Shown: one piece after another, positions 22,439-27,379 of the stretch
Layout of the letters: each line of letters starts with the position of its first letter
How positions within the stretch are numbered: position 1 is the stretch's first letter
From: Acidobacteriota bacterium
GTDB lineage: Bacteria > Acidobacteriota > Thermoanaerobaculia > Gp7-AA8
Direction: 5' to 3'
DNA: 43,406 nucleotides
Assembly (NCBI GenBank): GCA_016184115.1
Contig: JACPDH010000068.1
Coordinates: 1 to 43,406, forward strand
Translations under genes and position numbers: made by a program
Notes under the pieces: generated by a model
What the model was told of the DNA's origin: nothing
Database searches by the model: none
The model's input: the letters and a program-made list of their open reading frames with translations, nothing else

Positions 22439-22999
22439 TTACTTCTGGCCGACGGGACCGATGATGATCGCCATCCGGTTTCCCTGGAGCGTCGGCATCC
22501 CTTCCGCCGCTCCCTTATCTTTCACTTCGGCGAGGAGCCGGTCGAGCACCGCCCTGCCCAGCTCCTGGTGCGCCATCTCGCGCCCGCGGAAGCGGACCGT
22601 CGCCTTGACCTTGTCCCCGTCCTCGAGGAAGCGAAGCACGTGATTCCGCTTGAAGTTGAAGTCGTGCTCGTCGATTCGGGGGCGGAACTGCACCTCCTTG
22701 ACCACGATCACTTTCTGCTTCTTCTTCGCCTCGTTCGCCTTCTTCTTCTGCTGGAACAAGTACTTCCCGTAGTCCATCACCTTGCAGACGGGCGGCTTGG
22801 CGGTCGGAGCGATCTCGACGAGATCGAGCAGCTTTTCCGCGGCCAGCGCACGCGCCTCGGCGAGAGTCACGACTCCGCGCTGTTCGCCAGCGTCGTCGAT
22901 GAGACGAACTTCCGTGGCGCGGATCTCATCATTGATACGGGTGTCGTCGCCCGCCCTCTTGGGTGGCGCGAATCGGTCGAAACGTCGTGGCGGTCTAAT
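22439..22999 (-). CDS. infC: Translation initiation factor IF-3, AUU start codon
   Basis: The 186-residue IF-3 prevents premature 70S association and checks start-codon fidelity. The N-domain shows Arg-Ile-Asn-Asp-Glu-Ile-Arg-Ala near residue 22 and the C-domain contains Val-Met-Asp-Tyr-Gly-Lys-Tyr and Gln-Phe-Arg-Pro-Arg-Ile. The open frame upstream of the conserved N-domain begins after a TGA at 23005-23003 and contains no ATG, GTG or TTG at a suitable place. It does contain ATT at 22999-22997, exactly 9 nt after AGGAGG. Escherichia coli infC also starts with AUU, which IF-3 uses for autoregulation. The GTG at 22870 would delete conserved residues and is rejected; CTG at 23002 is a weaker alternative. 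Confidence 0.9.
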   Translation of the reverse strand: MRPPRRFDRFAPPKRAGDDTRINDEIRATEVRLIDDAGEQRGVVTLAEARALAAEKLLDLVEIAPTAKPPVCKVMDYGKYLFQQKKKANEAKKKQKVIVVKEVQFRPRIDEHDFNFKRNHVLRFLEDGDKVKATVRFRGREMAHQELGRAVLDRLLAEVKDKGAAEGMPTLQGNRMAIIIGPVGQK

Positions 23000-23133: not shown

Positions 23134-25047
23134 TCACAATGTCAAGGAGCGGCGACGGATCAAATCGCCGGCATCGATTGCAAGCTGGTCGATCGAGACT
23201 GCTCCCACGTCACCGACCCCTCGTTTGCGGAGACTCACGGTACCCGATTCGACTTCCTTCTCGCCCACGATCAGCATGAGCGGCACCTTCTCGAGCTGGG
23301 CCTGACGGATCTTCGCGCCGAGCTTCTCGTTCGACTCGTCGGCGACAACCCGGAGGCCTCGCTGGCCGAGCTCCGCCGCGACGCGATGCGCGTACTCGAG
23401 GAACTTCTCCGAGACCGGCAACACTTTCGCCTGAACCGGTGCGAGCCAGAGAGGGAATGCGCCCGCGAAGTGCTCGACGATGATTCCGAAGAAACGCTCG
23501 ATCGAACCGAGGATCGCGCGGTGAATCATCACGGGGCGGTGCTCCGCATTGTCGGCGCCGACGTAATTGAGGTCGAAGCGCTCGGGGAGGTTGTAGTCGA
23601 CCTGCACGGTGCCGAGCTGCCAGGGGCGGCCGATCGCGTCGGTCACCTGGAACTCGAGCTTCGGACCGTAGAACGCCCCCTCGCCCGGGTTGATGTGATA
23701 GTCGGTGCCGCGCGCCTTGAGCGCCCCTTCGAGCGCCGCTTCCGCCGCGTCCCAGACCTCGTCGCTGCCTAGGCGCTTCTCGGGACGGGTCGAGAGCGCG
23801 ACGCGAACATTCTCGAAGCCGAACACCGAGTACATCTCCTCGATCAGCTTGATCTCGCGTTCCATCTCCTGAGCCAGCTGCTCGGGTGCGACGAAGAGAT
23901 GCGCGTCGTCCTGCGCAAACGAGCGGACTCGCGCGAGTCCGTGAGTCACACCCGATCGCTCATAGCGGTGCAACCGCGCGAAGTCGGCGATTCGGAGCGG
24001 CAGGTCGCGATACGACCGTCGCGCATGCGCGAAGATCTGGGTATGGCCAGGGCAGTTCATCGGCTTCACGCCGTACTCCCGCTCGTCGACCTCCGAGAAG
24101 AACATCGCGTCTTTGTAGTTCTCGTAATGTCCCGAGATTTTGAAGAGCTCGGAGTCCCAGATCAGCGGGGTGACGACTTCCTGGTAGCCGTCGCGGCGGT
24201 AGTACTCGCGCACGAAATCGATCAGAGCGTTGTAGATGAGGGTCCCCTTCGGCAGGAAGACCGGCATCGCCGGCGCAAAGTGGGAGAACATCACGAGCTC
24301 GAGCTCCTTGCCGAGCTTGCGATGGTCGCGCGCTTTTGCTTCCTCGATCCGCTTGATGTGCTCGTCGAGCTCCTTCCTGTCGGCCCAGGCAGTTCCGTAG
24401 ATGCGCTGGAGCATCGCGTTCTTCTCGTCGCCTCGCCAATACGCGCCGGCGACCGAGAGGAGCTTGAACGCGCCGAGCTTGCCGGTCGATGGGACGTGCG
24501 GGCCCCGGCAGAGATCTTTCCAGTTTCCCTGGCCGTAGACCGAGAGCACTTCGCTCTCCGGGATTTCGCTGATGATCTCGACCTTGTACTTCTCCCCCAT
24601 CCGCTCGAACTCCTTGATCGCGTCATTGCGCGACCACTCGGAGCGCTCCACGGGGAGGTCGCGCTTCACGATCTCGTCCATCCGCTGCTCGATCGCTCGA
24701 AGATCCTCGTCGCTGAAGGGGCGGTCGGTCGCGAAGTCGTAGAAGAAGCCGTTCTCGATCACGGGGCCGATGGTGACCTGGGTACCTGGGAAGAGCTCCT
24801 GAACTGCCATCGCCATCAGGTGGGCAGTCGAGTGGCGAATGACGTCGCGACCTTCGTCGCTCGCGGGAAGGATGATCTCCACCTTCGCACCGTCGGGCAC
24901 CTTCACGGAAAGGTCGACGACCTTGCCGTCGATCTTTCCCGCGATCGCGTCCTTGGCGAGCCGCTTGCCTATCGACGCGGCGACGTCGGCAAGGCTCGCT
25001 CCCTCGGCAACTTCTCGCGACGATCCGTCGGGCAGTATCACGTTCAT
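23134..25047 (-). CDS. thrS: Threonine-tRNA ligase
   Basis: This 637-residue class II synthetase charges tRNA-Thr. An N-terminal TGS domain (about 1-62) precedes the editing domain (about 65-225) with the HSTAHLMA zinc-site motif near residue 72. The catalytic core holds the Asn-Cys-Pro-Gly-His zinc-ligand motif near residue 333, RSGVTHGLARVRSFAQDDAH and a C-terminal HxxxG-type anticodon-binding domain. GGAGG lies close upstream of ATG 25047, and a 7-bp hairpin lies just before it. Upstream are a Thr-rich leader frame and an intrinsic terminator in attenuator layout. It is followed by infC, rpmI and rplT on the same strand. Confidence 0.97.
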   Translation of the reverse strand: MNVILPDGSSREVAEGASLADVAASIGKRLAKDAIAGKIDGKVVDLSVKVPDGAKVEIILPASDEGRDVIRHSTAHLMAMAVQELFPGTQVTIGPVIENGFFYDFATDRPFSDEDLRAIEQRMDEIVKRDLPVERSEWSRNDAIKEFERMGEKYKVEIISEIPESEVLSVYGQGNWKDLCRGPHVPSTGKLGAFKLLSVAGAYWRGDEKNAMLQRIYGTAWADRKELDEHIKRIEEAKARDHRKLGKELELVMFSHFAPAMPVFLPKGTLIYNALIDFVREYYRRDGYQEVVTPLIWDSELFKISGHYENYKDAMFFSEVDEREYGVKPMNCPGHTQIFAHARRSYRDLPLRIADFARLHRYERSGVTHGLARVRSFAQDDAHLFVAPEQLAQEMEREIKLIEEMYSVFGFENVRVALSTRPEKRLGSDEVWDAAEAALEGALKARGTDYHINPGEGAFYGPKLEFQVTDAIGRPWQLGTVQVDYNLPERFDLNYVGADNAEHRPVMIHRAILGSIERFFGIIVEHFAGAFPLWLAPVQAKVLPVSEKFLEYAHRVAAELGQRGLRVVADESNEKLGAKIRQAQLEKVPLMLIVGEKEVESGTVSLRKRGVGDVGAVSIDQLAIDAGDLIRRRSLTL

Positions 25048-25067
25048 GGCTTCACTCCTCCCGGCTT

Positions 25068-25084
25068 GCGGCCCCTCGGGCCGC
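25068..25084 (-). other. Small hairpin just upstream of the thrS ribosome binding site
   Basis: GCGGCCC pairs perfectly with GGGCCGC around a 3-nt loop. It ends about 9 nt before the GGAGG of thrS. It could be a 5' stabiliser or a ThrRS-recognised operator, but nothing in the sequence decides. Confidence 0.5.
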
Positions 25085-25100
25085 GCATTCGATGCTCAAA

Positions 25101-25131
25101 AGAAAAAAGGACAGGGCGCCTGCCCTGTCCT
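25101..25131 (-). terminator. Intrinsic terminator (attenuator) upstream of thrS
   Basis: On the minus strand AGGACAGGGC (25122-25131) pairs with GCCCTGTCCT (25108-25117) around a 4-nt loop and runs into TTTTTTCTTTT. It lies 26 nt after the stop of the Thr-rich leader frame and about 55 nt before thrS. The upstream segment 25164-25173 (GCCCCGTCCT) is complementary to the 5' arm in nine of ten positions and could act as an antiterminator. Confidence 0.88.
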
Positions 25132-25157
25132 CGAATCGTTCCTTGGATCGGTTTCGA

Positions 25158-25229
25158 CTACGCAGGACGGGGCCTTGACGACGTTCGCGTCGTCGTTCGC
25201 GTGGCCTGCGTCGTCGTGAATCTGTGCAT
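25158..25229 (-). CDS. Threonine-rich leader peptide (putative thrS attenuation leader)
   Basis: A 23-codon frame runs from ATG 25229 to TAG 25160-25158. Eight of its 23 residues are threonine, all ACG, in runs of three, one, three and one; the rest are mainly Arg, Ser, Ala and Pro. It ends 26 nt before the intrinsic terminator. The Thr codons overlap a pause-type stem: 25205-25215 pairs with 25156-25166 (10 of 11), and inside it 25177-25183 pairs with 25188-25194 perfectly. This matches leader peptides of ribosome-mediated attenuation, in which stalling at Thr codons would favour the antiterminator. There is no convincing Shine-Dalgarno, and ACG repeats are favoured by the base composition, so translation is inferred. 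Confidence 0.6.
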   Translation of the reverse strand: MHRFTTTQATRTTTRTSSRPRPA

Positions 25230-25253
25230 TTTCGTATCGACCAGTAGGTGAAA

Positions 25254-25330
25254 TGGTAGGCTCTAGCGGACTCGAACCGCTGACCTCTACCGTGTCAAGG
25301 TAGCGCTCTAACCAACTGAGCTAAGAGCCT
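25254..25330 (-). tRNA. tRNA-Val (anticodon GAC)
   Basis: A 77-nt cloverleaf on the minus strand. The acceptor stem AGGCTCT pairs with AGAGCCT, the anticodon stem CTACC/GGTAG encloses loop TTGACAC (anticodon GAC), and the T arm has the usual TTCGAGT loop. The discriminator A and the CCA end are encoded. It lies 18 nt after tRNA-Val(CAC) and 24 nt before the Thr-rich leader frame. Confidence 0.97.
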
Positions 25331-25348
25331 ATGTTTTCAAACCGTGTT

Positions 25349-25425
25349 TGGTAGGCGCTATCGGACTCGAACCGATGACCTCTACCGTGTGAAGGTAGCG
25401 CTCTAACCAGCTGAGCTAAGCGCCT
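25349..25425 (-). tRNA. tRNA-Val (anticodon CAC)
   Basis: A 77-nt cloverleaf on the minus strand. The acceptor stem AGGCGCT pairs with AGCGCCT, the anticodon stem CTACC/GGTAG encloses loop TTCACAC (anticodon CAC), and the CCA end is encoded. It is very similar to the neighbouring GAC gene, suggesting tandem duplication and anticodon change. Confidence 0.97.
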
Positions 25426-25484
25426 GCACTGCTGGAGCCCTCTCAAACGGCACTCCGGCCCCCCGGTATTTCCGAGGGAGTGGA

Positions 25485-25513
25485 AGCATAGGGAATGGGC
25501 CTGCGCGTGTCAA
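25485..25513 (-). promoter_or_regulatory. Sigma-70-type promoter of the tRNA-Val/thrS transcript
   Basis: On the minus strand a perfect TTGACA (25508-25513) and TATGCT (25485-25490) are separated by 17 bp. Transcription would begin about 50 nt before tRNA-Val(CAC). There is no space for a separate promoter between the second tRNA and the Thr-rich leader except inside the tRNA gene. Confidence 0.72.
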
Positions 25514-25582
25514 CCGAGCGGCGGCTGGTCAGCGCGAGCGCTCGCCAGATCGCTCGGCTTGCCTGCGTTCGGCGTCGTGTCG

Positions 25583-25673
25583 AAGTTAGAACGCAGAACG
25601 ATGAATTGAGAACCGAGAAACGGTACCAACCCCTTTCTGGGTTTTCAATTCATCGTTCTGCGTTCTGACTTCC
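25583..25673. repeat. Heptad-period inverted repeat element B
   Basis: Arm 1 (25583-25615) is a run of 7-nt units GAAGTTA, GAACGCA, GAACGAT, GAATTGA, GAACC. Arm 2 (25641-25673) is its reverse complement, with two mismatches in 33 bases. The 25-nt centre can also pair partly (AGAAA/TTTCT). It lies in the 373-bp spacer between the tRNA-Val promoter and lysS, with no reading frame and no visible target duplication. Confidence 0.85.
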
Positions 25674-25798
25674 CGAAGATCACGCCGAGCAATCACCCGA
25701 GTGTCCCTGCGCGACACCGACGGCTCCCCTCCTCCCCCCTACGCTACAATGCGCCCTTCCGGGGCCCCCCCGAAAAACCAGGCAGCGGAGATCGAGCC
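25674..25798 (+). other. Non-coding leader region upstream of lysS
   Basis: This part of the spacer has a TACAAT hexamer at 25744-25749 that could be the lysS -10, about 50 nt before the GTG start. No clear -35 is seen. A pyrimidine-rich tract precedes it and a C-rich tract follows. Nothing else is recognisable. Confidence 0.4.

Positions 25799-27379
<1,581 letters not shown>

Follow-up and report, generated by a model that had tools for sequence, protein, structure and literature searches.

What sets the level of threonyl-tRNA synthetase in this acidobacterium? The window, by which we mean the whole 43,406-nucleotide stretch of DNA analyzed here, carries on its minus strand the open reading frame of the enzyme (thrS, 23134..25047, with the Shine-Dalgarno sequence GGGAGGAG at about 25055-25062), downstream of it infC (IF3; 22439..22999, recognized by its translation and the Shine-Dalgarno sequence AGGAGG), and then the open reading frames of rpmI, rplT and pheS, reaching to 20592. 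The apparent start codon of infC, at 22999 behind AGGAGG, is ATT, similar to that of E. coli infC, where a rare start codon serves IF3 autoregulation. Ahead of thrS lie a short threonine-rich frame and a terminator. We consider it very likely, reading the locus from its sequence, that this leader works by ribosome-mediated transcription attenuation, sensing charged Thr-tRNA to set the expression of thrS and probably also of the downstream infC genes, and that more ThrRS would very probably be made when charged Thr-tRNA runs short.

Anatomy of the leader and a proposed switch

The leader frame, MHRFTTTQATRTTTRTSSRPRPA*, runs on the minus strand from an ATG at 25229 to a TAG at 25158 (25158..25229), and eight of its 23 codons are ACG threonine codons (25217-25209, 25202-25200, 25196-25188 and 25184-25182). 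Re-reading the minus strand returned this frame, with its eight ACG codons and a stop 26 nt ahead of the terminator stem, just as the original prediction had it; the leader also lacks a clear Shine-Dalgarno sequence, as had been noted, with neither such a site nor a -10 box within 80 nt. The fold of the 209-nt leader region beats all 200 dinucleotide shuffles (z -3.9).

The putative attenuator is an intrinsic terminator (25097..25132, minus strand) with an 11-bp stem (25132-25107), a 4-nt loop and a T6-C-T4 tract; it scores -23.3 kcal/mol and was independently picked up by a pattern scan, in agreement with the strong terminator first proposed here. Its 5' arm (segment 3), AGGACAGGGC at 25122..25131, doubles as the 3' arm of a candidate antiterminator whose 5' arm, GCCCCGTCCT at 25164..25173, pairs with it at 9 of 10 positions, a duplex (z -3.1) that none of 300 shuffles equalled. 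A pause stem joins segment 1, GACGACGCAGG (25205..25215, overlapping the first Thr codons), to segment 2, CCTGCGTAGTC (25156..25166, overlapping the leader stop codon), through 10 of 11 pairs, with a z of -2.7 for the leader fold, and an inner hairpin of seven perfect pairs, GACGACG with CGTCGTC around a CGAA loop, occupies 25177..25194 (arms 25194-25188 and 25183-25177). All of these minus-strand pairings had been put forward before, and each was recovered as described.

How might these elements work together? The sequences show the anatomy, its conservation, its tie to thrS and a coding signature; that the frame is translated, that ribosomes stall on it, that the hairpin ends transcription and that all this answers to Thr-tRNA is what we infer from them. 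A ribosome would translate the Thr-rich frame while RNA polymerase transcribes the leader. With Thr-tRNA plentiful, the ribosome would reach the stop codon and cover segment 2, the GCCC[CT]GTC arm immediately ahead of that codon, leaving the terminator hairpin to form and transcription to end before thrS. With Thr-tRNA scarce, the ribosome would stall on the ACG codons in segment 1, and segment 2, left free, would pair with the 5' arm of the terminator as an antiterminator and let transcription run into thrS. Were the leader not translated at all, the stem between segments 1 and 2 would form and the terminator would win.

Conservation across the order

Among named organisms, genomes of Thermoanaerobaculia (Acidobacteriota) come closest to the window. 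The order to which the window belongs is represented by 19 genomes, 17 of which have readable DNA upstream of thrS, a gene whose identity across the order ranges from 61 to 87%. A leader frame followed by a terminator precedes thrS in all 17, and 16 of these leaders contain 5-9 Thr among 16-23 codons (examples are MKRTTTGLTRTTTGSPPCR, MTRTTTTAQTRTGRTPAPCR and MKHTTTTQTRTTGTTLMPCQ). Attenuation by a leader peptide before thrS, as originally proposed, is thus supported by an order-wide Thr cluster, terminator and complementary antiterminator arm. The remaining leader, MRPTCSSPPCR in G007 (L015), has one Thr only and retains its terminator; it may be a natural variant in which Thr sensing has been lost. 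In that genome the leader stop lies 66 nt upstream of thrS, and the promoter, the antiterminator arm and the terminator are all retained. An automatic filter for Thr-rich frames (4 or more Thr, making up 28% or more of the frame) passes 15 of the 17 genomes, with L010 (5 Thr in 21 codons) slipping below it, and enrichment of any other amino acid occurs in at most 2 of the 17. The same filter finds no Thr-rich frame upstream of thrS in the 42 genomes from the rest of the class or the 19 from the rest of the phylum, and the leader is therefore specific to the order within our phylum sample. Relatives that keep the terminator without the Thr cluster, named at the outset as evidence against attenuation, are thus represented within the order by G007 alone, although Thr leaders are absent from the class and phylum relatives sampled beyond the order.

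A covariance-model search of the 19 order genomes returned 17 strong matches (61-100 bits), every one at thrS, although the model scored mainly sequence because RNAalifold had kept only the terminator stem (6 pairs). A weak match (25 bits) also lies at thrS in G018, where the leader is plain by eye, and in G016, the one genome without a match, the contig ends at thrS. Matches thus fall one per genome in 18 of 19 genomes and always at thrS, and no extra copy elsewhere in the 19 genomes exceeds 26.4 bits. The best match away from thrS (G004:C103, L258) shows no leader on inspection and is apparently a chance match. Seven loci of other aminoacyl-tRNA synthetase genes in the genome of the window (PF00587, PF00133) likewise have no such leaders in front of them, only chance Arg-rich frames.

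The frame also behaves as a coding sequence. When the alignment is anchored on an R-T-T motif, pairwise differences at the three codon positions are 0.30/0.23/0.44, whereas the stretch after the leader stop has no periodicity (0.65, 0.67, 0.69); a third position that varies most is expected if the leader frame is translated. The Thr codons of the order leaders interchange at that position (ACG 87, ACC 14, ACT 14, ACA 3), with an ACG share of 74% as against 30% in the thrS genes, a preference that may reflect either the pairing of segments 1 and 2 or the choice of the tRNA that reads ACG.

The switch structures are conserved to different degrees. All 17 genomes have a strong intrinsic terminator in this position, and between 65 and 174 nt separate the leader stop from the start of thrS, a stretch in which nothing is conserved beyond the terminator. 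In most relatives the last leader codons are GCCCTGTCGNTGA, giving a peptide that ends P-C-R*, because the antiterminator arm CCCTGTCGNTGA is encoded there; this arm, GCCCTGTC(G) in the relatives, can base-pair with the 5' arm of the terminator, GACAGGGC, whose core is present in all 17 genomes except L019. There a T-A pair has become C-G along with the 3' arm of the terminator, so that all three strands change in concert. Core antiterminator pairs are retained in 14-16 of 16 sequences; L006 has a different pairing of similar strength, and there is a single mismatch in each of the window, L009 and L010, the pairing being weak in the latter two. Since the core hardly varies, covariation is thin, with one clear compensatory case, and the invariant pairs do not count as independent evidence. 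The alignment that had been suggested as a check thus recovers the Thr cluster with its variable flanks, the terminator and the complementary arm at the leader stop, but little of the expected covariation. The pause stem is less even: it is strong in the window, as had been proposed, and also in the congener L004 and in L014 and L019, but not uniformly so across the order, where its mean z of -1.1 is not consistently stronger than shuffles. The inner hairpin is found in the window, in L004 and in changed form in L019, and is not conserved elsewhere in the order.

Could a translated Thr frame act by some other route, as a self-stalling peptide or through Rho or translational control, and not through a terminator switch? 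Most order leaders share R-T-T and the C-terminal P-C-R*, as a peptide with a function of its own might, and G007 retains the architecture with its single Thr. We nevertheless regard this reading as very unlikely, as the P-C-R* end is accounted for by the antiterminator arm encoded there, the N-terminal sequences otherwise vary freely apart from Thr, and a strong intrinsic terminator follows the frame in all 17 genomes of the order.

Transcript starts and the tRNA-Val genes

Where would the leader transcript begin? In 12 of the 17 genomes a -10 box (TATACT or TACAAT, mostly extended to TGCTATACT) has its end 7-15 nt upstream of the ATG, from which we take the transcripts to be leaderless or nearly so; in two more the box lies 22-29 nt before the ATG and is joined by an SD-like GAGG. 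The missing Shine-Dalgarno sequence of the window fits this leaderless pattern. Boxes resembling a -10 element also lie near the start codons of other synthetase genes in the genome of the window (L171, L175, L176), a hint that this lineage often makes mRNAs with a short leader or none.

The window and L004 differ in having no -10 box within 80 nt of the leader ATG. They are also the only members of the order with a pair of tRNA-Val genes upstream, a feature missing from the original prediction: in the window, tRNA-Val (CAC) occupies 25349..25425 (minus strand; Rfam tRNA 69.4 bits, ARAGORN anticodon cac) and tRNA-Val (GAC) 25254..25330 (minus strand; 71.2 bits, anticodon gac), and the pair ends at about 25254, some 25 nt upstream of the ATG. 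Upstream of both lies a probable promoter, TTGACA-17 nt-TATGCT (25485..25513, minus strand), the sole promoter-like site in 24950-25900, with 10 of 12 matches as against 0.1 such sites in shuffles; from its sequence it would drive a tRNA-Val/leader/thrS transcript. The economical reading is that, in this genus, leader and thrS are transcribed from the tRNA promoter and translation of the leader takes place on the tRNA trailer. Transcripts would then start upstream of the two tRNA-Val genes in the genus of the window, and at or just before the leader ATG in most other genera. Within 500 nt upstream of thrS, none of the other genera of the order has a tRNA. The genus of the window has the two genes as CAC, GAC, but almost every other family of the class has them as GAC, CAC.

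The proximity of these genes raises the possibility that the hairpin merely terminates a tRNA-Val operon, the Thr-rich frame being a by-product of ACG/CGT repeats within it. Of the 42 genomes from other parts of the class, 40 have tRNA-Val genes ahead of thrS, nearly all as GAC then CAC and without a Thr leader, and in some (L024, L027, L029, L030) a terminator stands there with no leader, as this explanation would have it. We find it hardly tenable all the same, and reject it because in 15 of the 17 order genomes the leader and its terminator stand without any neighboring tRNA, and in 14 of these a -10 box lies directly ahead of the leader; hairpins also do not explain the codon-phase signature or an enrichment confined to Thr.

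In E. coli, ThrRS binds the leader of its own mRNA and thereby regulates itself, and the inner hairpin of the window, with a CGU near its loop, could be taken for an anticodon-like site of this kind, bound by ThrRS or another RNA-binding protein with no ribosome sensing the frame. This is barely conceivable: the hairpin is confined to the window, L004 and, altered, L019, so that the sole candidate for an operator of the E. coli type (a conserved tRNA-Thr-like hairpin at the thrS start) is not conserved in the order, the stretch between leader stop and thrS is unconserved beyond the terminator and variable in length, and protein binding would not keep Thr codons through synonymous changes. A T-box riboswitch, marked by a stem I with specifier loop and by the T-box antiterminator sequence, can be discarded, since the Rfam scan of the window returns the two tRNAs only, with no T-box and no known leader family. 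A chance Thr-rich frame is ruled out by rarity, as 603 kb of related DNA (single strand) yields only 2 frames other than the leaders with 6 or more Thr and a Thr share of 28% or above, and by the Thr-only enrichment in the order.

Parallels and implications

Ribosome-mediated sensing of charged Thr-tRNA, the reading we favor, has a classical counterpart in the thrL leader of the E. coli thrABC operon, which is Thr-rich and combines a terminator and an antiterminator in ribosome-mediated attenuation. The E. coli leader contains Thr and Ile codons and serves threonine biosynthesis, whereas the leaders studied here have almost no Ile and act, as we propose, on the synthetase gene. Synthetases, too, can be controlled in this way, as E. 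coli pheST is, and in Firmicutes thrS is governed by a T-box riboswitch that likewise raises ThrRS on uncharged Thr-tRNA; in the window the proposed sensor is instead the translating ribosome. Leader-peptide attenuators have also been described for trpS and leuS in Streptomyces (PMC1262725) and for hisS paralogues in bacilli (PMC2965389), which, like pheST, place a synthetase under cognate leader codons, but for other amino acids and in other phyla. For thrS itself, a thrL was proposed in Streptomyces lividans TK24 from RNA-seq, with a leaderless transcript and proposed attenuation (PMC8079986). This short Thr-containing leader resembles ours in position and in its leaderless transcript, but it has two Thr codons (MKRVRPFLETTPGFVPAR) and no clear intrinsic terminator and is known from a single genome (PMC8079986), whereas the leaders described here have 5-9 Thr and strong terminators and extend through an order of another phylum.

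A further parallel comes from Burkholderiales. The motif TTATGACACCGCGAAC, encoding MTPRT, is present in 72 of the 101 Polaromonas-family genomes (Betaproteobacteria) and in none of the control. All 30 loci that were read have it at the opening of a short and mostly Thr-rich frame; 28 of these run into a recognized thrS start and 29 have a terminator. Antiterminator pairing is modest in these loci (mean z -1.4). As in the order of the window, a mostly Thr-rich leader of 11-27 codons is followed by a terminator and then by thrS, but the Burkholderiales leader has an SD-like GAGAAAGG, a fixed N-terminus MTPRT and unrelated terminator and antiterminator sequences, and it probably arose independently. 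An MTPRTTT... leader with the motif AGCGAGAAAGGCA ahead of it and a terminator behind it precedes thrS at L066, L069, L071, L083, L090, L094, L097, L108 and L209-L238. An unclassified bacterium (L043) carries a short frame, MNMFSFSNSTNTFLTTTMTF, about 90 nt upstream of thrS and directly after a terminator, which may be another Thr leader. Leader-peptide control of thrS, called unusual in the original prediction, is less so in the light of the S. lividans thrL (PMC8079986) and these MTPRTTT leaders. In the literature searched (open-licence papers), we found no description of a thrS leader in Acidobacteriota or Burkholderiales. As leader attenuation of synthetases is already known, what our sequence comparison adds is an order-wide Thr leader before thrS in Acidobacteriota.

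Three other betaproteobacterial loci (L180, L189, L191) bring the tRNA genes back into the picture, each with tRNA-Val(GAC), a Thr leader (MQRTSTKTITYLG, MLKTDTTTLMISG and MIMSFRTTTTGTLNQG, respectively), a terminator and thrS. We tentatively propose that in the genus of the window the attenuator lies in the 3' trailer of the tRNA-Val precursor, with one promoter serving both and stalling deciding on extension into thrS-infC, and that this circuit has evolved twice, once here and once in those betaproteobacteria. If true, tRNA transcription would be coupled to synthetase supply. A Thr leader placed behind tRNA genes is possibly a new arrangement.

In Acidobacteria, almost no predicted attenuator has an associated function (PMC2965389), and the leader described here would give one to an attenuator of this phylum. 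Control of thrS by its own codons would add a third solution to the T-box and ThrRS autorepression. The Burkholderiales parallel suggests that such control is widespread and has been overlooked, because no Rfam family covers it, and none matches the MTPRTTT leader. The leaderless leaders, together with the tRNA-trailer version in the window, would make good test cases for the evolution of attenuators and of translation start, and the natural variants across the order, including the single-Thr leader, make the proposed mechanism directly testable.
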